NCBI GenBank assembly: GCA_013205405.1
Contig: JABMMZ010000110.1
Location: 1 to 34,735, forward strand
Direction: 5' to 3'
Length of the DNA: 34,735 nucleotides
DNA from: Bacteroidota bacterium
GTDB lineage: Bacteria > Bacteroidota > Bacteroidia > NS11-12g > UBA955
Positions 13,892 through 29,451 of this stretch are shown here, piece after piece. Position 1 is the first letter of the stretch. Each line of letters begins with the position of its first letter. Under the pieces are notes generated by a model. It saw only the letters and a list, made by a program, of their open reading frames with translations. It ran no database searches and was not told where the DNA came from. Both the position numbers and the translations under genes were made by a program.

Positions 13892-13998
13892 TGTCATTTC
13901 GAGTGAAAATGGCTCTGCATTTTTGTATCGAGAAATGGTTTGGGCTTTCCCTATGTCTCGATACATTCCTTTCAGAGCAAAGGAACACTCGACATGAC
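13892..13998. repeat. Two-hairpin REP/BIME-like element (A)
   Basis: The element is bounded by an imperfect 13-bp inverted repeat, GTCATTTCGAGTG at 13893-13905 and CACTCGACATGAC at 13986-13998. It holds two hairpins in opposite orientation: AAAATG-GCTCTG-CATTTT (13906-13923) and TTCCTTT-CAGAGC-AAAGGAA (13966-13985). Between them GTATCGAGA and TCTCGATAC form a further inverted repeat. The ends match the TGTCATTTCGA...GAGAAAT type of element that I recall being dispersed in Bacteroidota genomes; that recall is unchecked. Confidence 0.8.
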
Positions 13999-14006
13999 CG
14001 TGCCTA

Positions 14007-14047
14007 AAAAGAAACAGGGTTTGCCTATGGCAAACCCTGTTTCTTTT
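14007..14047. repeat. Perfect 19-bp-stem hairpin with TTTGCC-TAT-GGCAAA tip
   Basis: AAAAGAAACAGGGTTTGCC, loop TAT, then its exact reverse complement ending in TTTCTTTT. It shares its ten-base tip on each side with the hairpin at 13181-13213. The A/T ends on both sides could also let it terminate transcription in either direction. Confidence 0.75.
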
Positions 14048-14052
14048 GCTGT

Positions 14053-14095
14053 GTCATTCTGAATAAATTGGCTCTGCAATTTTATTCAGAATCTA
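14053..14095. repeat. Single-hairpin REP-like element (B)
   Basis: GTCATTCTGAAT opens a long stem, ATTCTGAATAAATTG at 14056-14070, closed by CAATTTTATTCAGAAT at 14077-14092 (one bulged T), with the loop GCTCTG at 14071-14076. It has the same layout as the left half of element A, although the stem sequence differs. Confidence 0.75.
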
Positions 14096-14110
14096 AAAAT
14101 TACTTTTAAA

Positions 14111-14267
14111 CTAATCTTTTTCTATAACATTTCTATTGTTAAACATTGGATTTAAAAAAAGCTCATTGGGTAAATAAAACCTTTCACAATCAGAAATAAA
14201 TTTTATATCCTTTAGTGAATTATTATCACTCACAAATCTTTCTTTTAATACATCTGTGTAGTATTTC
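14111..14267 (-). pseudogene. C-terminal fragment of an unknown gene cut by a repeat
   Basis: The 61-aa frame in the track begins with a TTG inside the CTTCGACAAGCTCAGTG repeat, whose translation DTELVEVSK is a known by-product of that repeat. The rest, from about 14267 down (YTDVLKERFVSDNNSLKDIK...), looks protein-like and ends in a normal stop at 14111. I read it as the remaining 3' end of a gene interrupted by repeats. I recognise no family. Confidence 0.4.
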
Positions 14268-14290
14268 GACACTTCGACAAGCTCAGTGTC
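14268..14290. repeat. CTTCGACAAGCTCAGTG dispersed repeat
   Basis: GACACTTCGACAAGCTCAGTGTC carries 6-bp inverted ends (GACACT/AGTGTC). From memory this sequence is widely dispersed in Bacteroidota intergenic regions, and here it is joined directly to element D. Confidence 0.65.
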
Positions 14291-14299
14291 CGACAATAC

Positions 14300-14396
14300 T
14301 GGCGTAAGCAGCGTAAGGGATAGAAGCGATTAGCCCGCAGCGTAGCGAGGACTATTAGCGTATAGCCCGACCCTGCGCTCTGGCAGGGATACGCCC
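14300..14396. repeat. Structured, GC-richer repeat (element D), possible RNA
   Basis: This stretch (AGGGATAGAAGCGATTAGCC ... GCGAGGACTATTAGCG ... GGGATACGCCC) is distinctly richer in G+C than its surroundings. It contains internal repeats (GGGATA twice, TAGCCCG twice) and the hairpin CCCTGC-GCTCTG-GCAGGG at 14371-14388. On the plus strand a run of seven T follows at 14403-14409. It matches a repeat type I recall from Bacteroidota intergenic regions, not a coding sequence. Whether it is transcribed is unknown. Confidence 0.65.
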
Positions 14397-14418
14397 TAAT
14401 GCTTTTTTTAATTAAAAT

Positions 14419-15180
14419 TTATCTTTTATACCTTACCAAGTATTTGCCTTTATCATCTATACGCGTAGCAGGTGGCATACGCATAAGTTCAAAGTAATTG
14501 TATCCTTCTTGTAAATTCTTCCAAAAATCTATTCTTAAAGGGTCAAATTTATAACTGCTTTTTAAGTAATTCCAATTGTTGGCATTCATTCTACAAGGGT
14601 AAATATGAATTGGAATAAAATAGTTTGTATCCTTATTGCCTTGCGCTTGAATATTGCACCAATATATCTCTTTAATAATATCGGTACTCATTGGCATACA
14701 GCCAATAGTTAGGCTATCGCCATGTACAAATATTTGTCCACCATAATTGCCTTTTTTGCCTAATATACTATCGCTTTTATTAGGATATGAAACTTTAAAT
14801 GAAAGATAAAAACTACTGTATGGATTGTATTGATTAATGCAATAATAACCTTCGGGCACTTGCATATCTCCTTCAAATCTTTTAGGGCCTAAGGCACCAG
14901 AAAGGCGGACAATGTAGTAGGTTTTTACAAGTTTATATCTATGGTGGGTGCTATCTGATGCCCATAGTTCTAAGGCTTGCTCTTTTTTAAAAGCGCGCCA
15001 ATACACAAATTTGGGAGGGTATTGTAAATTGGCTGCAGTAAAGGCTTTTTTTAATGTTTCATCACTGCTTATTCTAGCATTCCAAACGCGCTGATTACCT
15101 AATTGCTGTTCGGTTAATACTTGTGGTTGTGCGTAAGCGTTAACGGTTAGTAAAATTAAAAAAAATGCCCAATATTTCAT
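14419..15180 (-). CDS. YafK-like protein with L,D-transpeptidase catalytic fold
   Basis: The product has a YkuD-type active site and is probably periplasmic, where it would form or cleave peptidoglycan-linked bonds. A signal peptide (MKYWAFFLILLTVNAYAQ) is followed by the fold core, with VRLSGALGPKRFEGDMQVPE and the catalytic motif VHGDSLTIGCMPM (His153, Cys161). The short His-to-Cys spacing and the IGC.M ending resemble E. coli YafK/DpaA more than classical Ldt enzymes with SHGC. YafK is known as an amidase acting on the meso-diaminopimelate-Lpp link, but no Lpp homologue is visible here, so the substrate is open. The start codon overlaps the pyruvate kinase stop (TAATG), so the gene is probably co-transcribed with pyk. 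Confidence 0.85.
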   Translation of the reverse strand: MKYWAFFLILLTVNAYAQPQVLTEQQLGNQRVWNARISSDETLKKAFTAANLQYPPKFVYWRAFKKEQALELWASDSTHHRYKLVKTYYIVRLSGALGPKRFEGDMQVPEGYYCINQYNPYSSFYLSFKVSYPNKSDSILGKKGNYGGQIFVHGDSLTIGCMPMSTDIIKEIYWCNIQAQGNKDTNYFIPIHIYPCRMNANNWNYLKSSYKFDPLRIDFWKNLQEGYNYFELMRMPPATRIDDKGKYLVRYKR

Positions 15181-16613
15181 TAATCAATAATACTAATTTT
15201 AATACTATTGGCCATGCTTTTATTTTTAATAGGCATACTGGCAGTATGTATTACACGGTCGCCACTTTTCACCATGCCTTCTTCCGTTAATTTTTCTATT
15301 ACGTCAGAAAAAGTTTGATCGGTGCTTTCAAATTTATCATAATAAAAACCACGCACACCCCACACCAAGTTCATGGTTTTTAGCAGTGGTTTATGACTTG
15401 TAAATATATAGATATTGGCTTTTGGTCTGAATGATGAAATTTTATTAGCAGAATATCCTGAGCGGGTCATACCTACTATAGCTTTGGCATTTAAATGGTC
15501 GCTCATACGCACAGCTGTAAAACATATTTCATCTGATATAAAAGTATTACTATACTGAACAGGTTTAATACCTTTGAAATAAACACGTCTATCGTTTTCT
15601 ACATCACGGATAATTTTTTCCATGGTTTCTACCACTTTCACCGGAAAATCACCAACACTTGTTTCGCCACTCAACATTACAGCATCTGCACCATCTATTA
15701 CCGCATTGGCAACATCAGAAACTTCTGCACGCGTAGGCGTGCTATTGGTAATCATAGTTTCCATCATTTGGGTAGCTACTATTACTGGCTTGCCAGCAGC
15801 TAAGCATTTTTCTATGATGTTTTTTTGAATAAGTGGTAAATCTTGAAATGGTAATTCAACACCCAAATCGCCACGTGCTATCATAATAGCGTCCGAAACT
15901 TCAATAATACTGTCTATGTTTTTTACTGCTTCTGGTTTTTCTATTTTAGCTACTACTCTTGTTTCTTTACCTGCTGCTGCAATAAGTTTTTTAAGCGCAA
16001 TGATGTCTTCTGCAGTGCGCGTAAAAGATAAGCCAATCCATTCTACATTATGTGCCAAACCAAAAGCTAAATCTTCTAAATCTTTTTCTGTTAAACTAGG
16101 AAAAGAGACATCTGTATGCGGCAAATTAAATCCTTTTTTAGGTTTTAAAATACCACCTTGAATTACTGTAACTAAAACGTCATGTTCGTTTAATACAGTG
16201 TCAATTCTTACTTCAAGTTTACCGTCATCTAATAAAATACTTTCGCCAGGTTTTACATCTTTAGTTAAATTAATGTAACGAATGCAAATTCGCTCTGCTG
16301 TTCCAATTTCTTCTTTAGAAGTTAAAGTAATTTGAGTGCCTTCAACCAGTATTACACCATCATTTTCTATTAAGCCCACTCTTAGTTTAGGTCCTTGCAA
16401 ATCTTGTAGAATACAAATATCACTATTGAGTTCTTCGTTTACAGAGCGGATATTTTGTATAACCTCTTCGTGATCAGCATAATTGCCATGAGAAAAATTG
16501 AGACGGCAAACATCTACACCTGCCAAAACAATGTTTTTAATCATTTCTCTAGATGAGGTGGCTGGGCCAATAGTGGCAATTATTTTTGTTTTATTAAAAT
16601 TAGACTTATACAT
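15180..16613 (-). CDS. pyk: Pyruvate kinase
   Basis: The enzyme converts phosphoenolpyruvate and ADP to pyruvate and ATP in the last step of glycolysis. The 477-aa length is that of a standard enzyme without the extra C-terminal PEP-utiliser domain. Motifs in order: TKIIATIGPATSS at the N-terminus, CRLNFSHGNY, the signature RVVAKIEKPEAV with the catalytic lysine, IMIARGDLGVELPF, and ATQMMETMITNSTPTRAEVSDVANAV. The C-terminal regulatory domain is complete. It overlaps the upstream IPExxxVDY-family gene by eight bases, a pairing that is standard in Bacteroidota. Confidence 0.97.
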   Translation of the reverse strand: MYKSNFNKTKIIATIGPATSSREMIKNIVLAGVDVCRLNFSHGNYADHEEVIQNIRSVNEELNSDICILQDLQGPKLRVGLIENDGVILVEGTQITLTSKEEIGTAERICIRYINLTKDVKPGESILLDDGKLEVRIDTVLNEHDVLVTVIQGGILKPKKGFNLPHTDVSFPSLTEKDLEDLAFGLAHNVEWIGLSFTRTAEDIIALKKLIAAAGKETRVVAKIEKPEAVKNIDSIIEVSDAIMIARGDLGVELPFQDLPLIQKNIIEKCLAAGKPVIVATQMMETMITNSTPTRAEVSDVANAVIDGADAVMLSGETSVGDFPVKVVETMEKIIRDVENDRRVYFKGIKPVQYSNTFISDEICFTAVRMSDHLNAKAIVGMTRSGYSANKISSFRPKANIYIFTSHKPLLKTMNLVWGVRGFYYDKFESTDQTFSDVIEKLTEEGMVKSGDRVIHTASMPIKNKSMANSIKISIID

Positions 16614-17037
16614 TGTATTCGGAAATAAAATTTTTGGTATTTATTAAATTATTATAAATTGAATTTTGGGGTTTTACTATAGAAAATGGAAAAGAAAAAA
16701 TATGACTAATGATTGATGTGTTTTCAACAGAGGCAACAGCACGTTCAAAGTATTTATAGATATCTTCTCCATGGCATATTAAAAAATAATCAAATAATGG
16801 CTTGCTATTAAATATGAATGATTTTTCGCTTCTATTTTGAATCAAATGCCAATTAAGTTCAACATCTTCAAATTGTTCAAAAAAATGAATATGTTTGTTA
16901 ACTTCACCTACTTTATTTTCTATTTCCCAATCAAGGCTCATGTGAAATTGCATGTCGAAAGCTTGGTTTATTTGCCAAGCTACTGTGTAGGCTGGATAAT
17001 TGGCTTTAATGCCTGCTATTTGAATATCGGTATGCAA
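16606..17037 (-). CDS. IPExxxVDY-family protein with a variant motif
   Basis: This 143-aa cytoplasmic protein belongs to a Bacteroidota family of unknown function that habitually precedes pyk. The diagnostic order of segments is present: an N-terminal KANYPAYTVAWQINQAFDM, an FFEQFEDVELNWHLIQNRSE stretch, and SFIFNSKPLFDYFLICHG. The last one occupies the place of the IPExxxVDYFLI signature, but the IPE and V are replaced (IFNSKPLFDY), which is unusual. The best start is a TTG at 17037; no ATG is in frame before residue 29. It overlaps pyk by eight bases. A role linked to pyruvate kinase is only inferred from conserved neighbourhood. Confidence 0.78.
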   Translation of the reverse strand: MHTDIQIAGIKANYPAYTVAWQINQAFDMQFHMSLDWEIENKVGEVNKHIHFFEQFEDVELNWHLIQNRSEKSFIFNSKPLFDYFLICHGEDIYKYFERAVASVENTSIISHIFSFPFSIVKPQNSIYNNLINTKNFISEYNV

Positions 17038-17076
17038 TTTACAAATGTGTAATCAATGAATTGAATAATTATAGTG

Positions 17077-17084
17077 CAAATTTA
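17077..17084 (-). promoter_or_regulatory. -7 box of the IPExxxVDY-pyk-YafK unit
   Basis: TAAATTTG on the minus strand matches TAnnTTTG exactly, 39 bases upstream of the TTG start. Confidence 0.5.
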
Positions 17085-17116
17085 CATGATGTTTAATTAA
17101 GATGATAAAATAAATT

Positions 17117-18196
17117 TTAATTTAAAGTTAATAATTTGTTAACTGATTCTAAAACTTTGTTCACAGGCAAATCTGCCATACAGCTTATTCCAATAACACA
17201 TTGTCCTCTATAAAAACAAAGACATTCTTTATCTGGCATCACTATTTCACCTTTACCAAATAAATCAAATTCATTTGCATTAAAAATATTATTCATCAAT
17301 ACAATTTTCTTTTGCATACCCAATGTAAGGTGCATACCCATAGTTACTTGTGTAACAATTAAAGTACATTGATTAATTAAATTAATAAATTGAGAAAGCG
17401 AAAAAAAGCCTAAATATTTAGCCCCAGAGAGTGCTTGAATATCCTTATTTCTTTGATCTTCCTGCTCGCCTCCGAGTAATATTACTTCAAAGCCTTGTGA
17501 TATTAATTTTTGAGCCAGTTCTGCAAAATATTCCTTTGGCCAAAGTCTTGTTGTCCATCTATCGCCACATCCTGTATTGAGTCCAATTATCGTTTTTGAT
17601 TTGTCAATACTGGTCCATTCATAGCCTTTGTCATTATGATTGTCTAACAAATAGGTTTCACCAGAATAGGTCATGCCACACATTTCAAATATTTCTTGGC
17701 AATAGTTTTGCGTATTGGCTTTGCTCACATCATCAAATAAACCAGTATGAAACTTATGGTTTGCTAAATCATTGATTGGTTGCGCCACATTGTCTTTCAG
17801 CACATAACCATATTTTTCTTTGGCATTTACTTTTAATAGTAAAGCACAAGCTTCCTTTTCTTTGTCTAAATTTATAGCAATATCAAAAGATGCATTTTCT
17901 AAATAAATAGAAGAAGCATAATCAAATTTCAAAATCTCATCAATTTTACCACTTGGCAAAATAGCAGGGGTAAGGGTAAGCCAAGTTATTTTACAATTAG
18001 GATACAGTGTTTTATATCTGGTAACAAGCGGTGTAGTGCGTATTACATCGCCTATAGCACCTAGTTTTATAATCAGTATGCGTTTAGAAATGGGCGTATA
18101 CGAAGGGCAATTATTACAATGGTAACCGCTCTCTTTGTGAGGCTTACATGGCAAGTCTCCTTTAAAAAATAAACAATCTGGTTTATAAAAATTCAT
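17117..18196 (-). CDS. Glycosyltransferase family 9 (heptosyltransferase-like)
   Basis: The protein is a GT-B enzyme related to heptosyltransferases, probably transferring a sugar to a lipid-linked or LPS-core acceptor at the inner membrane. The N-terminal domain has RILIIKLGAIGDVIRTTPLV and the C-terminal domain has IIGLNTGCGDRWTTRLWPKEYFAEL and VILLGGEQEDQRN. The donor-site region TQVTMGMHLTLGMQKKIVLM replaces the usual TGD.G..H..., so the donor may differ. Odd features are cysteine-rich ends: CLFFKGDLPCK...GYHCNNCP at residues 8-30 and CLCFYRGQCVIGISCM near the C-terminus, which could bind a metal. It is a single-gene unit just downstream of the divergent type B cargo gene. Confidence 0.88.
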   Translation of the reverse strand: MNFYKPDCLFFKGDLPCKPHKESGYHCNNCPSYTPISKRILIIKLGAIGDVIRTTPLVTRYKTLYPNCKITWLTLTPAILPSGKIDEILKFDYASSIYLENASFDIAINLDKEKEACALLLKVNAKEKYGYVLKDNVAQPINDLANHKFHTGLFDDVSKANTQNYCQEIFEMCGMTYSGETYLLDNHNDKGYEWTSIDKSKTIIGLNTGCGDRWTTRLWPKEYFAELAQKLISQGFEVILLGGEQEDQRNKDIQALSGAKYLGFFSLSQFINLINQCTLIVTQVTMGMHLTLGMQKKIVLMNNIFNANEFDLFGKGEIVMPDKECLCFYRGQCVIGISCMADLPVNKVLESVNKLLTLN

Positions 18197-18314
18197 AAAT
18201 TATTGTATTGCAAATTAATGCTTTTTTTAGGTGTAATAAAATAGGTCAACAATATTTGGTCAAATAATTGAACTAATATTAAAAAAAATACTTTAAATAT
18301 TCAAAAAAATGTGT

Positions 18315-18322
18315 TATTTTTG
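18315..18322 (+). promoter_or_regulatory. -7 box of the 1207-aa type B cargo gene
   Basis: TATTTTTG matches TAnnTTTG, and TTTA lies 19 bases upstream (18292-18295) at the place of the -33 TTTG. The ATG follows 13 bases after the box. Confidence 0.55.
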
Positions 18323-18335
18323 ATTCATATTTATA

Positions 18336-21300
18336 ATGCTTAGGCAATTTCTAAAAATATCACTATTTGTTTTAATTCTTTTCTCAGTTAAAAGTATCAG
18401 TGCTACCCATTTAGTTGGCGGGTTTATAAGTTACCAATATATTGGACAAAATTCTGGAGGAACACGTTACAAAATTATTATTACTTCTTACAGAGATTGT
18501 AAATCGGGAAGTCTTGAGTTTGCAGATGATATTGATATATGTGTTTACAATAGAAGAGATGAAATACTGCATAGCACTTTTAATTTTAGAAGAGGAGATT
18601 TAGAAAGAGTAAAACCTCTTGGTAGAACGGATTGCCCGGGCTCTGGGAATGTTTGTTTAGAAAAAACCACTTACACCGACAATATTACACTTCCAAATAA
18701 TTCTTTTGGATATATAGTAAAATGGGAAACTTGCTGCAGAAATACACAAGTAAATTTAAAAGACGATATAAGTGGTGAGCCATATATTGGACAAACCTAT
18801 GAAGCAGTTATTCCACCAACCAACATAACTAATAGTTCGCCTTTTTTTACAGAAGTTCCTGTGCCATTTATCTGTGTAAACGATACCACTGAATTAAATA
18901 ATTATGCCATAGATCCTGATGGAGATTCTTTGGTATATAAATTAGCCACCCCTTGGATAGGTACTACCTTAGGGAATCAAACACCAGGTTGTGCTAGTTT
19001 TTATAGCCCCCCTATAGATATTAGTCTTGCAGATTACAAATCGGGTTACAATGGGAATATACCATTTGGCTCAAATGGCATATCATTAATTAATTCTAGA
19101 AATGGTATTACTACTTTTTTAGCAAGACAAACAGGTAATTATGCTGTGGCTATTGATTTGTTTGAATATAGACGAGGTATTGGATTGCTGAGTAAAACTA
19201 GATTAGATTTACAAATTCTAGTAGTTAACTGTACACCCAACAACAAGCCTATTATTGCCAATTCAATTAAAAGATATACAATTGTAGCTGGCGAAAAATT
19301 ATGCTTTGATGTGATTGGTAAAGACAAAGACTTAACCCAAAATATATCATTGAAAGGTATTGGAAATTTACTAACAGGAGCCAATGGTTTTATTGGAAAT
19401 AGAGCCACTTTTAATCCTGTAACTGGCAAAGGAACTATTAGCTCTCAATTTTGTTGGCAAACCAGCTGTAATACCAATGATTCTTTTTTATTTACCGCAC
19501 AAATTATTGATGATGGCTGCCCTTCTAAGTTTACGTATGTCAATTTTAATATTATTGTTAAACCTTTTTCGGGAAAAGTAACCGTAAATGGACCCATTAA
19601 TGTTTGCCAAAATTCGAAAGGAAATATTTATACCATTACCCCAACAGCCAATACTGCTGCCGAATTGTTTGGAATAAAATATAATGTAAGCGTTAATAAT
19701 GGGGTGTTAAAATCTCAAGTGGGGCGTCTATTAACCATAGATTGGGATATGAATGTGCTTTCTGGCAGTATTGAGGTGGAACCAGAATCACAATATGGTT
19801 GCAAAGGACCTAAGTTTATTTACAATGTGCCTTTAAAGCAAGCACCACCATTGCCAATTATCACCGCCATTGATACTGTATGCGAAAATATAAATAAGAT
19901 TTATACAACTTTGCTAACAGGTGGCTTTACCTATCAATGGTGGGTTAAGAATGGAAGTGTGTTAGGTGGTAATAATTCAAATTCAATCAATATAACATGG
20001 GGTGCTCCAGGCCCAGCCTCCGCTAAATTAGTTCAATATAATCAGTTCAATTGCCCAAGTGATACTGCTTTATTAGAAGTATGGGTATCTAAGCCAGTTA
20101 CTTCTGCTATAATTGGTAGTACCACGGTTTGTCCAAATACAAAAGGTTTAGATTATGCAGTAGTTGCCAGAAATGGAAGTTCTTACAGATGGTTTGTAAC
20201 AGGCGGTGTGATAGTGGCAGGCGGCAATAGCAATGCCATACAAATTAATTGGGGCAATCAAGGTTTAGGCAGCGTTAAGGTAATAGAGGTAAACAAATTT
20301 GGTTGCTTTGGAGATACTATAACGCTAATCGTTAATAAAACTTATGCCCTTATAGCTTCAAATATAGTAGGCGATATTTCTGTATGTGAATTGACAACGA
20401 ATGTAAAATACAGTTTACCGTTTACAAAAAATTCTACCTATAATTGGTCGATTAGCGGAGGTGTTATTATTTCAGGGAATTTAACCAATCAAATAATAGT
20501 GAATTGGGGCATTGCAGGGCCCGGCAGCATTAGTATGTATGAAACCAGTTTCGACTCGGTTAATAATTTGGAATGTATAAGTAACGTAGTTGTAAAAGCA
20601 ATAAGTATTAGACCATATCCATCAACTAAAATAATAAATGGCGATTTTGAAGTTTGTCAATATACTGGTGCAGGCATATATACTGTAAATGGATTGCCTA
20701 AATCTAAGTATGTATGGGAAATAAATGGAGATAGTGCCAATATTGTGGGGCAATTAACTAATAGCATAATTATACCTTATACTGTTTTTGGAAATTTTAA
20801 TATTAAAGTAACTGAAATTTCAGAATTTGGTTGTATTGGTATTCCAATAGATTCTGTTTTAGTAATACATCCAAAACCAACCACCACGCCTATTCTTGGA
20901 GATACCATAATATGTTACCCCAATTTTAATAATTTCACCTATACAACAACAGGATTGCCAAATTCTAACTTTGATTGGTTTGTTGATGGAGGCTCAGCCT
21001 TAAGTCCTAGTATTACACCTCAAATTACAGTTAATTGGAATGGCAAACAACTAAGCTCACTTAAAGTGCTCGAAACCTCTGAATTTGGATGTGTAGGGGA
21101 TACTTTAAGGCAAAATATATTCTTTGATAGACCTTCTTTGTATTTAAATTTTACTACAGTTAATCCTCCTCCATCAGAAGATAATGGTATAGATTTATAT
21201 TGGAAACTCATAAATGCCCCACGCTATAATAACCAAATTTTTATTGAAAGAAGAGAAGCTGGTACAGCCAATCCTTTTATCATTGTAGGTGAAGTAAACG

Positions 21301-21959
21301 GCAGTATTATTACTTTTAATAATGGCAATATTTCTACAGATTTTAATGCTTGGGAATATAGAATTAAAGGATTTGATTTATGTGGGCAAGTGTTGTATAC
21401 AAGTTTGCATACCAATATACTTTTATCTGGAAAAAAAGTAAATGGATATGAAGTAAGCTTAGATTTTACACCTTACATAGGTTGGGGAAGTAGCAATATT
21501 CAATATGATGTTTACAGACAATTAAAAAGTAAAACAGGCTACGATTTGTACGAAAGTAATGTAACAAACTTTAAAGCATATTACAACAATGGATTGGAAC
21601 ATTTCACCCAATGCTACCGTATTAAAGCCACGAAAATTGGCACCGATACAGTAACTTGGAGCAATGATGTGTGCTTAAGTTTCGATCCTATTATTTTTAT
21701 TCCATCAGCCTTTAGTCTTAATGATGATGAGTTTAACGAAACTTTTTTAATGAAAGGTGGCGCGCTTAAATCAGTAGAAATAATGGTTTACAACCGTTGG
21801 GGCGAAAAATTATGGACTGGATTTGATATCAATGCACAATGGGATGGAAAGTATAAACAGAAAGACCAACCACAAGGTGTTTATACGTATTACTGCCGAT
21901 ACGAAGGTTTTGATGGTAGAAAATACTCTACAAAAGGTACTATTACCTTATTGAGATAG
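18336..21959 (+). CDS. Large secreted PKD-like repeat protein with T9SS type B sorting domain
   Basis: This 1207-aa extracellular protein has no recognised activity. A signal peptide is followed by ATHLVGGFISYQYIGQ and a conserved N-terminal domain with SYRDCKSGS, CCRN and PDGDSLVYKL motifs, seen in many Bacteroidota type B cargo proteins. About six PKD-like repeats follow from residue 410 to 930. Each has a Y.W.v..G core, an I.v.WG strand and a final FGC.GD (for example YRWFVTGGVIVAGGNSNAIQ). A fibronectin-like segment (LYWKLINAPRYNNQIFIERR) precedes the type B domain (FIPSAFSLNDDEFNETF ... VYNRWGEKLWTG ... GTITLLR). A surface or adhesion role is inferred from architecture only. Confidence 0.9.
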   Translation: MLRQFLKISLFVLILFSVKSISATHLVGGFISYQYIGQNSGGTRYKIIITSYRDCKSGSLEFADDIDICVYNRRDEILHSTFNFRRGDLERVKPLGRTDCPGSGNVCLEKTTYTDNITLPNNSFGYIVKWETCCRNTQVNLKDDISGEPYIGQTYEAVIPPTNITNSSPFFTEVPVPFICVNDTTELNNYAIDPDGDSLVYKLATPWIGTTLGNQTPGCASFYSPPIDISLADYKSGYNGNIPFGSNGISLINSRNGITTFLARQTGNYAVAIDLFEYRRGIGLLSKTRLDLQILVVNCTPNNKPIIANSIKRYTIVAGEKLCFDVIGKDKDLTQNISLKGIGNLLTGANGFIGNRATFNPVTGKGTISSQFCWQTSCNTNDSFLFTAQIIDDGCPSKFTYVNFNIIVKPFSGKVTVNGPINVCQNSKGNIYTITPTANTAAELFGIKYNVSVNNGVLKSQVGRLLTIDWDMNVLSGSIEVEPESQYGCKGPKFIYNVPLKQAPPLPIITAIDTVCENINKIYTTLLTGGFTYQWWVKNGSVLGGNNSNSINITWGAPGPASAKLVQYNQFNCPSDTALLEVWVSKPVTSAIIGSTTVCPNTKGLDYAVVARNGSSYRWFVTGGVIVAGGNSNAIQINWGNQGLGSVKVIEVNKFGCFGDTITLIVNKTYALIASNIVGDISVCELTTNVKYSLPFTKNSTYNWSISGGVIISGNLTNQIIVNWGIAGPGSISMYETSFDSVNNLECISNVVVKAISIRPYPSTKIINGDFEVCQYTGAGIYTVNGLPKSKYVWEINGDSANIVGQLTNSIIIPYTVFGNFNIKVTEISEFGCIGIPIDSVLVIHPKPTTTPILGDTIICYPNFNNFTYTTTGLPNSNFDWFVDGGSALSPSITPQITVNWNGKQLSSLKVLETSEFGCVGDTLRQNIFFDRPSLYLNFTTVNPPPSEDNGIDLYWKLINAPRYNNQIFIERREAGTANPFIIVGEVNGSIITFNNGNISTDFNAWEYRIKGFDLCGQVLYTSLHTNILLSGKKVNGYEVSLDFTPYIGWGSSNIQYDVYRQLKSKTGYDLYESNVTNFKAYYNNGLEHFTQCYRIKATKIGTDTVTWSNDVCLSFDPIIFIPSAFSLNDDEFNETFLMKGGALKSVEIMVYNRWGEKLWTGFDINAQWDGKYKQKDQPQGVYTYYCRYEGFDGRKYSTKGTITLLR

Positions 21960-22006
21960 AACATTTATAAATAAAATGATTTTAATAAGTATTGTTAAAA
22001 ATGCAT

Positions 22007-22014
22007 TAAATTTG
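22007..22014 (+). promoter_or_regulatory. -7 box of the ferredoxin operon
   Basis: TAAATTTG matches TAnnTTTG exactly, 23 bases upstream of the ATG at 22038. A weak purine stretch (AAAGAAAC) lies just before the ATG. Confidence 0.55.
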
Positions 22015-22037
22015 TGTCCTTTTAATCAAAGAAACTT

Positions 22038-22385
22038 ATGGCAATTAAAATAACAGATGATTGTATAAATTGTGGCGCATGCGAGCCAGAATGTCCCAAT
22101 AATGCAATATATGAGAGTGGAGTTGAGTGGGCTATACAAGATGGAACAAGTGTGGAAGGTAAATATACCTTAAGCAATGGAGATGTTATTTCAGTGTCAG
22201 AAAAATTTACACCGGTAAGCAATGAAGTATATTTTATAGTAGCAGATAAATGCACCGAGTGTAAAGGTTTTCACGAAGAGCCGCAGTGTGCTGCCGTATG
22301 TCCTGTAGATTGTTGTGTTCCCGATCCTGATAAGGTAGAATCGGAAGCAGTTCTGTTAGATAGAAAATCGCGCCTCCATATTTAA
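22038..22385 (+). CDS. YfhL-like 2x[4Fe-4S] ferredoxin
   Basis: The 115-aa protein is a small cytoplasmic electron carrier with two [4Fe-4S] clusters. The first site is the compact [12 protein letters not shown] at residues 9-20. The second is the extended [18 protein letters not shown], with a longer loop between the second and third cysteines as in YfhL/Allochromatium-type ferredoxins. An insertion between the sites ([20 protein letters not shown]) is also seen in the Bacteroidota form. Redox partners cannot be read from the context. The NlpC/P60 gene starts three bases after the stop and probably shares the transcript. Confidence 0.93.
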
Positions 22386-22388
22386 ATA

Positions 22389-23129
22389 ATGTCTAAAGGG
22401 ACTTGTCTTTTAAGTTATGTGCCTATGCGCAGTGAGCCACGCTCAGGTGCAGAAATGGTGAGTAGTTTAATTTTTGGTGAGTCATACTTGCTTACCTCCG
22501 AAGACAATGGTTTTGTAAAAATTACAACAGATTTTGATAACTATGAAGGTTGGATTAGTAAAAATACTGTTTCAGAATACATTCCTTTTGATAAAATAAA
22601 TGATGAATTATTTGTTATTGCAAAATCTGGCAATGAAAAAATTTTTATTCCTTGTGGAGCGAATATGCCAAGCAATAATGAATTTAAAAAAGATGAAATA
22701 ATTTTTAAGATTGAACCATCTGTAAGAACCAATCACCATTTACCCATCAAATTAAGACTAACTAAAACTGCTCAAATGTTTTTAAATACACCTTATATAT
22801 GGGGTGGACGCAGTTTTATGGGAATAGATTGCTCAGGTTTTGTACAAATAGTTTTTAAGGCCAATGGCATCAATTTGTTACGCGATACCAATCAGCAAAT
22901 TTTACAAGGAACTGAAGTGTTATTTGAGAACCGAAACGTTGGAGATTTAGTTTTTTTTAGTAAACCTAATTCTGATAAAGTAACCCATGTAGGCTTGCTT
23001 TATAATTCCGATACGGTAATTCATGCAAGTGGCTTTGTCAAGTTGCAATCATTAGAACCTGAAGGTTTAATTAATGAAAATTGTGAAACAGAATACAAAT
23101 TAATGGCAATAAAAAGATTAATTGATTAA
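22389..23129 (+). CDS. NlpC/P60 (C40) cysteine peptidase with SH3b domains
   Basis: This peptidase would cut the gamma-D-glutamyl bond in peptidoglycan stem peptides. An N-terminal SH3b pair (about 1-120; VPMRSEPRSGAEMVS, GWISKNTV) precedes the catalytic domain, which has TPYIWGGRSFMGIDCSGFVQ (Cys148), DLVFFSK, THVGLL (His200) and VIHASG (His212). This matches dipeptidyl-peptidase VI/YkfC-like enzymes. There is no signal peptide, so a cytoplasmic muropeptide-recycling role is more likely than wall remodelling. It lies between a ferredoxin and a glycosyltransferase, with a seven-base gap to the latter. Confidence 0.9.
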   Translation: MSKGTCLLSYVPMRSEPRSGAEMVSSLIFGESYLLTSEDNGFVKITTDFDNYEGWISKNTVSEYIPFDKINDELFVIAKSGNEKIFIPCGANMPSNNEFKKDEIIFKIEPSVRTNHHLPIKLRLTKTAQMFLNTPYIWGGRSFMGIDCSGFVQIVFKANGINLLRDTNQQILQGTEVLFENRNVGDLVFFSKPNSDKVTHVGLLYNSDTVIHASGFVKLQSLEPEGLINENCETEYKLMAIKRLID

Positions 23130-23136
23130 ATTACCA

Positions 23137-24336
23137 ATGCGGATTATTCATTTAAGCGCAAGCGATAAAGGAGGAGCATTTAAAATGGCTGACAAGTTAG
23201 TGAAACATCAGAATGCTAGTGGATTGATAGCGCATCATGCAATTTTTACTGGCAATTTATCAAACATTGAAGTTACAGGAATAAATTTTTTAGATAAAAT
23301 TTATAAATTTTGTTTGCATGCTTTTGAAAAATTTATTTTTTTATTTTATGAAAAGTCAAAAGATAAAAGATTTAAGTTTTCTTTCGGCTATCCAGGTGTT
23401 TCTATTAAAGTGTTAAAAAAAATAACTGAAGGGTTTGATATTATTCATATTCATTGGATTAATAAAGGCTTTATAAATATTAATGATTTATATCAACTGA
23501 ATAAACCAATAGTATGGACAACTCATGATATTTGGATAGCAACAGGAGGCTGTCATTTAACAATGGGTTGCAATCACTTTGAAAAAGAATGCGGAAACTG
23601 TTTGTATCTAAAAAGACCTTATCCAAATGATTTGTCTTTTGACTTATTTAAAATTAAAAAACAAGTTGTTTCCAACCTTAATGTTGCATTTGTAGCACCC
23701 AGTGTATGGATGTTTAATAATTTGAAAAATAGTCCAATTACTCAAAGTAAATATTTGCATAATATACCTAACGGTATAGATACAAGCATATTTAAAAATA
23801 TAGATTTACTCAGAAATGAAGTTTTTACAATTGGTTTTGTAGCTGCCAATTTGAATGATGAAAATAAAGCATTATTCCGTTTAGCAAATGCAATCAATCT
23901 CTTAGTTTCCAATTTTCTGGGTATAAAAGTAAAATTGATATTGATAGGAGAGAAGAAAGAAAATTTTAAATTTAATTTTAATTGCGCAATAGAGCAAGTA
24001 TCATTTGTGAAAAACGAGCACGAAATGGTAAATTACTACAATCAAATGGACTTGTTGGCAGTTACCTCTACCTTAGAAACATTGCCAACTAATATTATTG
24101 AGGCAGGCTGCTGTGGCACGCCCTCTATTGCCTTTAATGTTGGCGGAATAAGCGATGTTATTTCTTCTGAAAATGGAATATTAATTGAGGCTTTTGATGA
24201 ATCAGAATTTTCAAAATCATTACATTATTTAACTAAGAACGCAATGGATAGAGAAGAAATTTCTAGTTTTATGAAACAAAAATTTAGTTTGAAAAATGTA
24301 TCTGAAGCCTATTTAAAAGTTTACAATTCCTTTTAA
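23137..24336 (+). CDS. GT4-type glycosyltransferase (WcaC-like N-terminus)
   Basis: This is a GT-B glycosyltransferase for surface polysaccharide assembly. The start is the ATG at 23137 (MRIIHLSASDKGGAFKMADK), since the track start at 23122 is a TTG inside the end of the previous gene. The N-terminal domain has DIIHIHWIN, WTTHDIWIATGGC and the cysteine cluster CNHFEKECGNC, which recurs in WcaC-like transferases. The C-terminal donor domain has IPNGIDTSIF, ETLPTNIIEAGCCGTPSIAF with the EX7E glutamates, and NVGGISDVI. Its stop codon overlaps that of the convergent gene at 24333 in a shared TTAA. Donor and acceptor sugars are unknown. Confidence 0.88.
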   Translation: MRIIHLSASDKGGAFKMADKLVKHQNASGLIAHHAIFTGNLSNIEVTGINFLDKIYKFCLHAFEKFIFLFYEKSKDKRFKFSFGYPGVSIKVLKKITEGFDIIHIHWINKGFININDLYQLNKPIVWTTHDIWIATGGCHLTMGCNHFEKECGNCLYLKRPYPNDLSFDLFKIKKQVVSNLNVAFVAPSVWMFNNLKNSPITQSKYLHNIPNGIDTSIFKNIDLLRNEVFTIGFVAANLNDENKALFRLANAINLLVSNFLGIKVKLILIGEKKENFKFNFNCAIEQVSFVKNEHEMVNYYNQMDLLAVTSTLETLPTNIIEAGCCGTPSIAFNVGGISDVISSENGILIEAFDESEFSKSLHYLTKNAMDREEISSFMKQKFSLKNVSEAYLKVYNSF

Positions 24337-25529
24337 TTTTTATTTAGTGCAAAAGCATTGTTAAAATTATTTGCAACTATTTGAATATTTATTTTATCCT
24401 CAATAATTTTTAAAGAATTACTTCCTAACAAATCGATATCATTAGACCAAACATGCTTAATAGCTTCTGTTAATGATTCTAAATTCCCATCCTCAAAATA
24501 ATACCCATTTACACCTTCAAAAACTAAATGTTTTTCAGTTCCATCTGCTATTGAACAAATAATTGGTAATGAATGGCACATTGCCTCATTAATAGATAAT
24601 CCTCCCATACCAGCTAATACATAAATACCTGATTTTAAAAATTCAACACTTTGAGCCTCGCCTTCATAGATAGCGCCAAGAAATTTTATTTGATTAGTTA
24701 AGTTTAAGGATTTAGTCAATTCTTTTAAATTGCCTTCTTCTTCTCCATTTCCAATAATGGCTAATTCTATTTCGGGATAATTAGGCTTTAAAAGTTCGAC
24801 TGCACGAATAAGTAAATCAACATTTTTCCATTTAACTAGCCTTCCTACGTGAATAATTCTGAATTTATTTTTTATTATTGTTGATGTTTTATTAGATTCT
24901 ATTTTCTTTATTGTTTTGAATATATAGTCAGTATCTGGTGAGTTATAAGTTGCAAAAATTTTATTTTTATCAATACCATACGAAGCTAATATATCTATAC
25001 CAACATCTGTATATGTAAAGGCCGAATCAGCAATGAATGAATAAGTTAATTTTCGGAATAGTTTTGTTATTGAAAAGTTAAAAAATGAAGTAAATATTTT
25101 TTCATTTCTTTGACTTTCAGCACATCGTAAAGTAAAATTTTTTCTCGATTCATGATTGTAAGGGACACTAAATGGAATTTCTCTAACTATAATTTTAATT
25201 TTTTTGTATTTAAGTTTTAATAGTAATAGCGGATTGAAAATAAGCGCTAAAAAATATGGCCAACCCAAAACAATAATTTTTGTGTTTTCTGATTTAATAG
25301 TTGAGTAAAAATTTTTGAAAAAGGGCTTATTGTACCAAGTATTATATTCAACTAACTTTATTGATTTAAACGCTGTGTCTTCGTCTGATAAATGAACCCC
25401 ATTGCCTATGGTTCTGCCTCTAGTATCAGGAGAAATAGTTAGTATTTCTACCTTACTACTCTCATTTATTTTACTAAGTAATTTAATTAAATAATGGGGC
25501 AATCCGCCAAAAACAAAAACAACTTTCAT
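24333..25529 (-). CDS. GT4-type glycosyltransferase
   Basis: The 398-aa GT-B protein probably adds a sugar to a lipid-linked glycan at the cytoplasmic face. The N-terminus MKVVFVFGGLPHYLIKLLSK is the acceptor-side Rossmann strand. The C-terminal half has the family 1/4 landmarks IIHVGRLVKWKNVDLLIRA, ELAIIGNGEEEGNLKEL, and GMGGLSINEAMCHSLPIICS with the EX7E-like region, then GTEKHLVFEGVNGYYF. It converges with the gene at 23137 with overlapping stop codons, so the ends of both genes are antisense to each other. A -7 box lies nine bases before its ATG. Confidence 0.9.
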   Translation of the reverse strand: MKVVFVFGGLPHYLIKLLSKINESSKVEILTISPDTRGRTIGNGVHLSDEDTAFKSIKLVEYNTWYNKPFFKNFYSTIKSENTKIIVLGWPYFLALIFNPLLLLKLKYKKIKIIVREIPFSVPYNHESRKNFTLRCAESQRNEKIFTSFFNFSITKLFRKLTYSFIADSAFTYTDVGIDILASYGIDKNKIFATYNSPDTDYIFKTIKKIESNKTSTIIKNKFRIIHVGRLVKWKNVDLLIRAVELLKPNYPEIELAIIGNGEEEGNLKELTKSLNLTNQIKFLGAIYEGEAQSVEFLKSGIYVLAGMGGLSINEAMCHSLPIICSIADGTEKHLVFEGVNGYYFEDGNLESLTEAIKHVWSNDIDLLGSNSLKIIEDKINIQIVANNFNNAFALNKN

Positions 25530-25537
25530 TAGAAAAG

Positions 25538-25545
25538 CAAAATTA
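25538..25545 (-). promoter_or_regulatory. -7 box of the GT4 gene at 24333-25529
   Basis: TAATTTTG on the minus strand matches TAnnTTTG exactly and ends nine bases before the ATG, implying a leader of only a few bases. Confidence 0.5.
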
Positions 25546-25668
25546 AAATATTTTCATGTTTTTAACTAATTTATAATTTTTTCCCCTAACTATTCCTTTA
25601 AAATTTTGTATTCCATTTTAAGATAGATATGTTACACATTTATTAAGTATAGGCTTATACCAAAATTA

Positions 25669-25932
25669 ATGCTTAAACAAACCCATTTTAAACAAATCAA
25701 TTATCAAAATGGCACAATTGAGGAAGAAATTGTAGATGAAAAAAGCGAATATTCAAGTTTTTATCCAAGCGTAAATTTAGGATATAGATTAGAAATTCAC
25801 GTAAATTAGAATGAAGAATCCATCAGAATTGAGCCTTATGCGCAGTTTTCTTTTATCAATGCTAAAAATAAAAATTTAAGTAATTCATTAACTGGTTTTG
25901 GTTTGCGTGTTGCTTTTTTATGGATGCAATAA
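25669..25932 (+). pseudogene. C-terminal remnant of an outer-membrane beta-barrel protein
   Basis: The frame from 25669 encodes alternating strands typical of a barrel (FYPSVNLGYRLEIHV, then IRIEPYAQFSFINAK, then LTGFGLRVAFLWMQ) and ends in TAA at 25930. It is broken by an in-frame TAG at 25807-25809, and no signal peptide or N-terminal half is present. The final strands with an aromatic near the C-terminus fit an OmpA/porin-like barrel. It is too short for the ORF track. I take it as a decayed gene. Confidence 0.6.
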
Positions 25933-25934
25933 AC

Positions 25935-25942
25935 TAATTTTG
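25935..25942 (+). promoter_or_regulatory. -7 box of the methyltransferase gene
   Basis: TAATTTTG matches TAnnTTTG exactly, and only five bases separate it from the ATG at 25948, so the mRNA is probably leaderless. Confidence 0.5.
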
Positions 25943-25947
25943 CAACA

Positions 25948-26667
25948 ATGGCTGCAATTATTCAAAAAGAAATATGGACCGATAGAACGAAAGAATGGTC
26001 TAAAGAAGATATTTTAAAACTATACGAAAAACCTAATATTTTTCAAATAGACTTTTCAAGATACTTGAATGAAAATTTTATTCAAAAGGATACTAAAATT
26101 ATAGAAGTGGGTTGCGAAGCTGCTGGAACGGCTGTTTTATTAAATCAACAATCCAATATTTATTTATTGGATTACAATGAACATATTATCAATATTGTTG
26201 AAAAAGCTTGGCAACAAAAAAAGTTAAAAGCTAATTTTGTGTGTGCAGATATGTACAATATGCCTTTTGAAGATGGCTTTTTTGATGTGATATATAATGG
26301 TGGCGTTATAGAACATTATGATAGAAACGAGCGTAATAGAATTTTTAAAGAATATGCTAAAAAACTAAAAACTGGAGGGTATATGGTTATTGCTTACCCA
26401 AATCACCATTCGTTTCCATATAAAGTGGCCTATACAATACGCACACTCACTAATAGATGGCCTTTTCCAAAAGAGTTAAAAATTTATGATTTAAGAGAAT
26501 CTATACAAGGTTTAGATTTGGAATTTGTAAGCCGAAATGTATTGGCAAAACAAACTGTTTTTGATTGGCTTGGCTTTTGGAAATGGCTAAAATGGAGCTT
26601 TGAAAAACTAGACAAAGTATTCAACTATGAAGGTTATTTATCAGTGGTAGTGTTAAAGAAATTATAA
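25948..26667 (+). CDS. Class I SAM-dependent methyltransferase
   Basis: The 239-aa protein has a Rossmann methyltransferase fold. Motif I is IIEVGCEAAGTAVLL (the third glycine replaced), motif II is IYLLDYNEHIINIV, the post-II stretch is FVCADMYNMPFEDGFFDVIY and GGVIEHYD is the Methyltransf_11-type core. The tail has the hydrophobic VFDWLGFWKWLKWSF, possibly membrane-contacting. In this neighbourhood a role in modifying a glycan or its lipid carrier is plausible, but the substrate is unknown. The gene runs convergent to a glycosyltransferase with a six-base overlap of stop regions. Confidence 0.85.
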   Translation: MAAIIQKEIWTDRTKEWSKEDILKLYEKPNIFQIDFSRYLNENFIQKDTKIIEVGCEAAGTAVLLNQQSNIYLLDYNEHIINIVEKAWQQKKLKANFVCADMYNMPFEDGFFDVIYNGGVIEHYDRNERNRIFKEYAKKLKTGGYMVIAYPNHHSFPYKVAYTIRTLTNRWPFPKELKIYDLRESIQGLDLEFVSRNVLAKQTVFDWLGFWKWLKWSFEKLDKVFNYEGYLSVVVLKKL

Positions 26668-27813
26668 AGTATTTAATGCTTTAATAACATCTTGAAATAA
26701 AGTATCCATATGCCATTGGTGCTTCTTTTTTATAACATTTATTCTGCATTCTTGCAGCCACTTAGAGGTTAATTCATTTTGAACAAAATAATCAAATTTT
26801 TGCAATTCATCTATTCCGAATATCTTTCCAAAATTATTTTTATTCACTAATTCTTTTGCATCGCCATCAGGTAAAATACCGATTATTGGGAGTCCTAAAT
26901 TAAAGTATTCAAAAATTTTGCTTGGCACACAAGCCTCTAAATAAGGATTAGTAAGAGATACAATGCCTATATTTATATTTTCTGACACGAAATTTAAAAA
27001 TTCATTATGTGGCATTAATGCTCTAAAATTAAATTGATTTAAGAAAGGTAATATTGGTTTGTAATTTTGATAATTGCCTATAAAAAATACCTTTAAATTC
27101 TTTTCACTATTGGCTAATATTTTTGCTATAACCTCCACACTTTGATGTTTGCCAAAAAGACCGGCATACATTAAAGAAAGTGGATTGGAGTTAAAATTTT
27201 CACTCAATGGATAATCATAAAAATAACCATAATAATTATTCATCATGTTGCTTTCATTTAAAAATGAATACTTTTTAATAAGACTTATTTTAAAAAAATC
27301 AGAAGAAGTAATAATTAAATCAATATTGCTTAAATATTTTTTCTCAAAACTATTTCTTTTAAATCTGAGTTCATTACTTACATATAATCCATTTACAGAA
27401 GCATGGTTAATAGGATCTTGAAAATTAATAACATACTTACAATTTAACTTTTGTTTTAAATAATGCCCTATGGCTAAGGTTTCTAAACTGCCACCAGTGG
27501 TGCAAAAAACAATGTCTTGTTGAGTTACAATTTTACTTAAATATTTAATTGTATTTTTAGCAAAGAAATAATCTTTATCCGCTATCAAATTAAATCTTTC
27601 TAACACATCGCAAATTTGTTTTTGATAAAAATAAGGAATATAAGTGACATTATTTTTTACAGATATCTCTTTACCTCGTTTATTTGGCATTACAACATGC
27701 ACTTCATAATTCTTAGAAAATAATTCAATCTGCTTTTTTCTAATTAAAACACCTCCAAAATGTTTATCTGATTCAATGTCGAAATATTGAGAAATAAAAT
27801 ATAATTTCCTCAT
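26662..27813 (-). CDS. GT4-type glycosyltransferase (WbuB-like)
   Basis: The 383-aa GT-B protein belongs to the polysaccharide cluster. The N-terminus MRKLYFISQYFDIESDKHFG and VHVVMPNKRGKEISVKN give the acceptor domain. The C-terminal domain has SLMYAGLFGKHQSVEVIAKI, VFFIGNYQNY, and EACVPSKIFEYFNLGLPIIG, which resembles the P.K..EY...G.P segment of WbuB-like transferases. Its ATG overlaps the flippase stop (ATGA), so the two are translated from one mRNA. Donor and acceptor are not known. Confidence 0.85.
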   Translation of the reverse strand: MRKLYFISQYFDIESDKHFGGVLIRKKQIELFSKNYEVHVVMPNKRGKEISVKNNVTYIPYFYQKQICDVLERFNLIADKDYFFAKNTIKYLSKIVTQQDIVFCTTGGSLETLAIGHYLKQKLNCKYVINFQDPINHASVNGLYVSNELRFKRNSFEKKYLSNIDLIITSSDFFKISLIKKYSFLNESNMMNNYYGYFYDYPLSENFNSNPLSLMYAGLFGKHQSVEVIAKILANSEKNLKVFFIGNYQNYKPILPFLNQFNFRALMPHNEFLNFVSENINIGIVSLTNPYLEACVPSKIFEYFNLGLPIIGILPDGDAKELVNKNNFGKIFGIDELQKFDYFVQNELTSKWLQECRINVIKKKHQWHMDTLFQDVIKALNTL

Positions 27814-29306
27814 CTCTTACCCAATTTCCTTCCCACTAAATCTAACAATGCATTTTGGTAATTACCCATCATTACAAATACTAAAGCTACCAGTAACACA
27901 AATACTATTTTTAACCCAAACAATGCCCATGAAAAAGCAAAACCAGTAAAAAATTGATAGTATAAAACAATGGCAATTAAATACACCATTAAAAATTTAG
28001 CCAATCGCCATAAACCTAAATTCATTTTTTCTAATTTTCGGGCAAAATAAAACTCAATACTTACCATAACAATGGCTCCCATTGTTTGTGCCATAGCTAT
28101 TGCAGAAGCTCCAAATTTGGGAATTAACAAGGTATTTAAACTGTAAATAACACTAGCGCAACTTAGCACTGCAATAGTGATGAAAACAGTACGTTGATGA
28201 AAGCTAATTATAGTGCTAAACAAACGATGATAAATAGAAAATAAAAATGGAATACATAAGCCAGAAACATACACATAAGCTGTGCTATATTTGGGGTTAT
28301 TATTGGATAATAGCATAATGACCTCTTGTGCAAAAAATGTAATACCAATATGTGCAAATAAAACAACTACCATACAAAGCAAAGTCAATTCCCTTGTTTT
28401 CTTATGGGTTCTATCTCTATCGTTTATTAGTCCACTCATAACCACAGGGCTTAGCACTTGTGTAATAGCATCTATGATAAAATACATAATAGTGGCAATA
28501 CTTGCAGCTATGGAAAATAACCCCACTATATCCTGTTTAGGATATTGCTGCTGCATCATTAAAACAGGGCTTTGGGTATTTATCCATGCAGCAATACCTG
28601 TAGGCAATAATGGTACAGAAAACCATAAGGCTTCTTTTAAATACTGCCAATTAAATACAAATTTAAGATACTTGTTGCGTAAAAAATAAACAGTTACCAT
28701 TGTCATTAAAACAATGGCTATAAAAGCATCGCCAATTAATCTGCCCAATACACCCATTTGATAATGTGATACCAAAATGATAGATAAGCCAACGCCCAAT
28801 ACTGTTGCCAAAATTTGAAATAAGGTTGTTTTATGCGATTCTAAACTTTGATTAAAAAAAGCTATACCCAACTGACCAAGTTGCAATAATATTAAAGGAA
28901 AACACAGCAGAGCAATGGTATAATTTGAGTATTGAGAATTTAATTGAAAACTATAAAAACAGATACTCATAGATATAAACCCTACAATGAGCACAAACCA
29001 ATAACTGGTGCTAAACATTGATTTTAGCTTTTTGATATCCTGCTTATACAATTGAAAAAAACGAATAAACGCGCCATCAATACCAAACGAAACAATTAAA
29101 GGTAAAATACTTTTCATGGCATTTAAAGCGCCATATTCTCCTATTTCTACAGGTGATAAATAATGCGTAAAAATAGGCATAGTAAACACCGCCAAGCCTT
29201 TGATGATAAGACTTGTGAACATATACCATTTACCTACTTTAAAAATAGATTTTGCCCAACTGCCTTCGTGTATATCTGCTATATTAGTCAAATTAATGAA
29301 AGGCAA
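27810..29306 (-). CDS. Wzx-like polysaccharide flippase (MOP superfamily)
   Basis: The 498-aa membrane protein has about 12-14 hydrophobic segments and would move a lipid-linked oligosaccharide across the inner membrane. The first helix region reads YMFTSLIIKGLAVFTMPIFT followed by HYLSPVEIGEYGAL, a typical Wzx start, and later PLLPTGIAAWINTQSPVLMM is a conserved transporter stretch. The start in the track is a TTG at 29306; the first in-frame ATG is residue 29 and would remove part of the first helix, so a TTG start is more likely. The gene lies 4 bp in overlap with the downstream GT4 gene and behind a palindromic repeat. Confidence 0.9.
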   Translation of the reverse strand: MPFINLTNIADIHEGSWAKSIFKVGKWYMFTSLIIKGLAVFTMPIFTHYLSPVEIGEYGALNAMKSILPLIVSFGIDGAFIRFFQLYKQDIKKLKSMFSTSYWFVLIVGFISMSICFYSFQLNSQYSNYTIALLCFPLILLQLGQLGIAFFNQSLESHKTTLFQILATVLGVGLSIILVSHYQMGVLGRLIGDAFIAIVLMTMVTVYFLRNKYLKFVFNWQYLKEALWFSVPLLPTGIAAWINTQSPVLMMQQQYPKQDIVGLFSIAASIATIMYFIIDAITQVLSPVVMSGLINDRDRTHKKTRELTLLCMVVVLFAHIGITFFAQEVIMLLSNNNPKYSTAYVYVSGLCIPFLFSIYHRLFSTIISFHQRTVFITIAVLSCASVIYSLNTLLIPKFGASAIAMAQTMGAIVMVSIEFYFARKLEKMNLGLWRLAKFLMVYLIAIVLYYQFFTGFAFSWALFGLKIVFVLLVALVFVMMGNYQNALLDLVGRKLGKR

Positions 29307-29356
29307 AGGTAATTAAATTTGTGGGTTAGAAATACTTCAAAAGTTTTGAATAATGA

Positions 29357-29451
29357 GTCATTCTGAACTTTTTTGCTCTGAAAAAAGATTTAGAATCTAC
29401 CTAAACATCAGATTCTGTATAATTTTGCAAAGCCAAAATTTACAGAATGAC
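29357..29451. repeat. Two-hairpin REP/BIME-like element (C)
   Basis: GTCATTCTG (29357-29365) and CAGAATGAC (29443-29451) form exact inverted ends. Inside are CTTTTTT-GCTCTG-AAAAAAG (29368-29387) and AATTTTG-CAAAGC-CAAAATT (29421-29440), the second in reverse orientation and with one base changed in the loop. The layout matches element A. It separates the flippase from the upstream gene at 29483 and could affect mRNA ends there. Confidence 0.8.

Follow-up and report, generated by a model that had tools for sequence, protein, structure and literature searches.

Six short hairpins in a contig of a Bacteroidota bacterium close on nearly the same six bases while their stems differ, and the question is why a loop should be kept when the stem beneath it changes. 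All six hairpins that a sequence-only reading had described are present in the window, the whole stretch of 34,735 nucleotides that was analysed (inner spans 13906-13923, 13966-13985, 14056-14092, 14371-14388, 29368-29387, and 29421-29440), and the loop is GCTCTG in five of them and GCTTTG in the sixth. Five of the hairpins lie within GTCATTCTGA/GTCATTTCGA palindromes of two outer-arm types, and the one at 14371 belongs to a separate repeat family. The earlier reading had the same loop occurring in opposite orientations, while we found that the five REP loops share a single orientation, GCTYTG, when read on the strand that starts with GTCATT. The features are as follows.

13893..13937, + strand: TCGA-type REP unit; inner stem AAAATG/CATTTT, GCTCTG loop at 13912-13917; left half of an inverted dimer
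13953..13998, - strand: TCGA-type REP unit; inner stem TTCCTTT/AAAGGAA, GCTCTG loop (CAGAGC on the + strand, 13973-13978); right half of the dimer
14053..14094, + strand: CTGA-type REP unit; GCTCTG loop at 14071-14076 on a 15-bp hairpin whose 3' arm bulges by one base
14309..14400 (boundaries approximate), + strand: sequence-unrelated repeat, GGGATAG...TAGCCCGACCC-hairpin-GGGATACGCCC; terminal hairpin CCCTGC/GCAGGG at 14371-14388, loop GCTCTG
29357..29398, + strand: CTGA-type REP unit; inner stem CTTTTTT/AAAAAAG with a one-base bulge, GCTCTG loop at 29375-29380; left half of an inverted dimer
29410..29451, - strand: CTGA-type REP unit; inner stem AATTTTG/CAAAATT with a one-base bulge, GCTTTG loop (CAAAGC on the + strand, 29428-29433); right half of the dimer

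Anatomy of the repeats

A REP unit is a hairpin of 42-47 nt with conserved outer arms, an inner stem that changes while staying paired, and the hexaloop GCTYTG. The outer arms are GTC-ATTCTGA...TCAGAAT-CT in the CTGA type and GTC-ATTTCGA...TCGAGAAAT in the TCGA type, the arms of the latter being GTCATTTCGAGT and TATCGAGAAA. CTGA-type units total 42 nt: behind the GTC come a 15-nt 5' arm, the loop, a 3' arm of 16 nt in which one base is bulged out, and a final CT. In two of the window copies this bulge sits ~7 bp beneath the loop, the usual spacing for the type, and in the third it falls inside a T run. The GTC foot is found in nearly all units, and the base before it is C in the copies on contigs C57, C54, C108, C16, and C120, T at 13893, 14053, and 29451, A at 29357, and G at 13998. 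In both inverted dimers (13893-13998 and 29357-29451) the GTC ends face outward, and the window clusters and ten further copies that we examined all lie outside long ORFs. Some copies are interrupted: a CTGA-type unit (L001, G000:C57:52441-52464) has its right arm broken by a second hairpin, ATTTTGCTTTGCTAAAT, and resembles nested elements, and a TCGA-type unit (L344, G000:C61:28002-28049) carries the hairpin TCCCGCAAGTGGGGA in place of its right inner half, a similar hairpin also adjoining the dimer on contig C14.

The CCCTGC-GCTCTG-GCAGGG hairpin is part of a TAGCCCGACCC...GGGATACGCC element that is unrelated in sequence to the REP units. A loop-blind pattern for this element matched the genome at exactly two places, one copy ending in a GCTCTG tip and the other in GCTTTG. 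The probability of a chance tip match is ~9e-4 per hairpin from hexamer counts, or ~0.015 once the window's other hairpins are taken into account, and local copying is possible because both copies lie near a REP unit. Searching viral contigs with a pattern for this repeat gave mostly chance coding matches, except for L279, a relative in another contig that has CCCGAAGCGCAGCGAAGGG at that place.

The window holds two other prominent hairpins. Between the REP units, and likewise between convergent genes, a long near-perfect hairpin at 14006-14046 (AAAGAAACAGGGTTTGCC-TAT-GGCAAACCCTGTTTCTTT) is flanked by A and T runs and looks like a bidirectional terminator, and a perfect 16-bp hairpin at 2626-2663 (AAATCAAAAAGTCCAA-GCTAGC-TTGGACTTTTTGATTT) directly follows the gene at 563-2611 and is probably its terminator.

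Loop preference and stem pairing across the genome

Within the window, 5 of the 24 perfect hexaloop hairpins with a stem of at least 6 bp carry this loop, and the hexamer GCTCTG occurs 12 times against 5.7 expected. Across the genome we used a 655-kb sample that is not random, about half of it coming from contigs already known to carry the arms. In this sample GCTCTG is the top-ranked hexamer as a hairpin tip, found 8 times versus 1.28 expected (p 6e-5 uncorrected, ~0.12 with correction for the roughly 2,000 hexamers compared), and each of the eight GCTTTG tips listed falls in a repeat. Selecting on the outer arms alone, with the loop unread, returned 19 matches, a criterion that is noisy by itself, since the reversed-sequence control returned 8; we judged 16 of the 19 to be real by eye, and the remaining three look like chance matches. 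Among these 16 units, 11 close on GCTYTG or GCTCTA, all with a paired inner stem, a further four have a common stem with G[CT]ACTC as its loop, and the last is a chimera. The sequence-only reading had allowed that loops elsewhere in the genome might prove random; when arms and inner pairing with a hexaloop were scored together, again ignoring the loop bases, each of the 12 top-scoring units closed on GCTYTG or GCTCTA, while below them the scan total resembles the reversed-sequence control, in which no loop recurs. The shared loop is real and goes beyond chance. There are exceptions, namely the G[CT]ACTC subfamily (four copies) and single copies with GCTCTA, GCTTCG (L350), and GCTTAG (C120), the last two being related to the unit at 29451, and GNA tips are present in this genome as well.

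The stems had been described as unrelated, which overstates the case: several are distinct and paired, but A/T runs predominate, and a number of stems vary a common theme, AAAAAT in the TCGA type and TTTTT in the CTGA type. The covariation set comprised ten distinct cores: eight came from this genome and one each from a genome of the same genus and another Bacteroidetes record. In this set 85.7% of cells pair compared to 49.5% in shuffles and all seven pairs vary on both sides. The covariation score was 0.908 versus 0.234 for shuffled sets, a value reached by 0 of 500 shuffles and by no slid version, although the truly independent stems are fewer than the list suggests, as most are A/T runs. 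The rows were partly picked as hairpins; the arm-only catalogue, which involves no such choice, shows the same pairing. The proposed rule of one loop over compensating stems therefore survives both the loop-unread selection and the pair count, but not as an absolute rule, given the exceptions above.

Outside this genome we found almost nothing with the loop pattern in the genomes of 59 relatives, or with the outer arms in 108 genomes of the order, apart from single units (e.g. in G014 and G060), so that across the relative, order, and class searches the combination of arms and loop is essentially confined to this genome. The one clear unit in G014, which is of the same genus, has the same tip on a different stem. 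A scan that required the loop showed other stems capped by GCTCTG in Clostridia, Patescibacteria, Acidobacteria, and further groups, and matches to the GTCATTYYGA...GCTCTG pattern in viral contigs were mostly coding or chance.

Related arms in other phyla favour a different tip. The GTCATTCTGA...GAAGAATC arms enclose 105 distinct middles, 45 of which contain C-GNA-G against 9.2 expected and none its reverse complement, and in GTCATTGCGA...GAAGCAATC elements C-GNA-G occurs in 27 of 110 (9.0 expected; reverse complement 4, with 5.0 expected), flanked by complementary but variable sequence; related copies are not independent, so shuffles overstate the significance of both excesses. With the same arms, many inner hairpins, and a preferred tip in other genomes, a kept tip over variable stems looks superfamily-wide, and it is probably a property of the superfamily, GCTYTG being the tip of this lineage. 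In the IMG/VR loci L108-L227 and the GTCATTGCGA loci, C-GNA-G is favoured on the GTC strand only, and its flanks often have tandem G-A mismatches. L117 and nine other IMG/VR loci, on ten contigs, share an identical inner GGAGCGCCATTTACAC within GTCATTCTGA...GAAGAATC, which does not appear hairpin-like. Another genome of the class (G309; L074 onward) holds ~96 copies of a GTCATTCTGA...TCAGAATCT element with a constant AAATCT...AGATTT stem and a variable interior, the opposite of the pattern in the window.

Recognition, descent, or function as RNA as possible explanations

To our knowledge, CGTC-type REPs occur in many phyla and their copying enzyme has never been found. We found no match to the Y1 (RAYT, PF01797) transposase in this 2.15 Mb, 84% complete genome, while 5 of 14 control genomes matched, and the IS110 (PF01548) transposase was likewise not found in it. 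Recognition by a RAYT, which the sequence-only reading had suggested, is thus unsupported, as the CGTC-tagged REP superfamily has also been reported without a dedicated transposase (Di Nocera et al. 2013, PMC3733652).

Starting from what we observed directly, namely the anatomy, loop preference, covariation, dispersal, and dimers, we lean, at somewhat less than an even chance, toward a folded single strand that is recognised at its foot and tip. The unit would act in this form, most likely as ssDNA, and a putative ssDNA-processing enzyme or binding protein would read GTC at the foot and the bases of the tip, whereas the stem would only be measured. C-GNA-G, the usual tip elsewhere, would have been largely replaced by GCTYTG in this lineage. 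DNA loops of the GNA kind are extraordinarily stable (PMC4686876), but GCTYTG is not a GNA loop, and DNA stability does not explain it. As GNA tips coexist in the genome, a single factor reading a single tip cannot serve all of the REPs here. Against recognition stand the loop exceptions, the lack of a candidate enzyme in the Y1 and IS110 searches, and the fact that descent can explain the loop within the REP units. It is nearly as likely, and in our view a serious possibility, that one ancestral GCTYTG REP spread in this lineage and that template switching in the hairpin copied changes from arm to arm, the stems drifting as pairs and the loop being inherited without recognition. This fits with most stems of a given arm type being A/T runs and variants of each other, with GCTTTG, GCTTCG, and GCTTAG occurring inside one subfamily as expected of drift, and with the family being carried by few close relatives. 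Mutational self-correction of this kind does not account for the tip being kept while adjacent stem bases are replaced, nor for the same tip in 2 of 2 copies of the unrelated repeat, at the per-hairpin chance given above.

Two further explanations are less probable. Transcribed hairpins might serve as terminators, mRNA stabilisers, or docking sites for protein or RNA, and in one variant the complementary dimer loops GCUCUG and CAGAGC could possibly kiss. The sites are intergenic, one cluster lies between convergent genes, the RNA folds range from -10.5 to -14.9 kcal/mol, and in the 29.4-kb dimer, whose neighbouring genes are both on the minus strand, the loops read on that strand remain able to pair, with a single G-U. 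We nevertheless consider a function as RNA improbable, as any inverted dimer automatically has complementary loops, units also occur singly or in non-matching pairs (C108), a U tract is absent from most units, and it is as DNA that the GNA tip, the commoner one in the superfamily, has its special stability. The sequence-only reading had itself raised near-identity by descent, and the CTTTTTT stem is indeed common to three copies; the copies are not near-identical, however, so simple recent copying fails to explain a loop that recurs on a number of different stems, in both arm types, and in an unrelated second family. Coincidence or near-identity is refuted by the loop-unread catalogue, with its 12 top units sharing the loop and a reversed control without a recurring one, and we assign it hardly any weight.

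Returning to recognition at foot and tip, it is intriguing to consider a broader version, which we regard as unlikely, in which a trans-acting ssDNA- or RNA-binding factor of this lineage would read the GCTYTG tip regardless of stem, so that unrelated families converged on it. Elsewhere a GNA triloop in the DNA of the GTC strand would serve as the code, and recognition would be what spreads the CGTC REPs, for which no transposase is known. For experimenters, a tip conserved above freely changing stems points to the part to use as bait. The restriction of the GNA tip to one strand suggests that the working form is folded ssDNA of one defined strand.

Relation to known repeat systems

An Rfam search of the window returned no match, and a literature search on GTCATTCTGA gave unrelated, apparently incidental matches only. 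The units resemble GTAG REPs and their RAYT system in being short dispersed hairpins with a conserved foot and in forming dimers, but the foot here is GTC-AT rather than the GTAG tag. With the multi-phylum GTCATTCTGA...GAAGAATC palindromes they share the outer arms, the orientation, variable inner stems, and a preferred tip; those palindromes have a C-GNA-G tip (often GCGNAGC), often with tandem G-A mismatches, whereas the units here have GCTYTG on Watson-Crick, mostly A/T stems.

The closest comparison is with the CGTC-tagged REPs (PMC3733652), which also have a GTC end tag (CGTC or TGTC in most copies), form head-to-head type dimers, are intergenic, and occur in Bacteroidetes. The terminal CGTC of those repeats, TGTC in many of them, is found in the units here apart from the A and G cases given above, as is A-T in the first and second stem positions, with units starting ATTCT.../...AGAAT or ATTTC.../...AAAT. 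CGTC-tagged REPs have stems of 8-9 bp, loops of 4-5 nt, and a CCA tail, whereas CTGA-type units have a bulged stem of ~15 bp, a 6-nt loop, and end in CT, and the units here keep the hexaloop GCTYTG over changing inner stems. Because of the mismatch in stem and loop size we place them outside CGTC-1 to CGTC-4. The REP units of this genome, short palindromic repeats of the non-autonomous kind, form an extended variant of the CGTC-tagged REPs with an unusual conserved tip.
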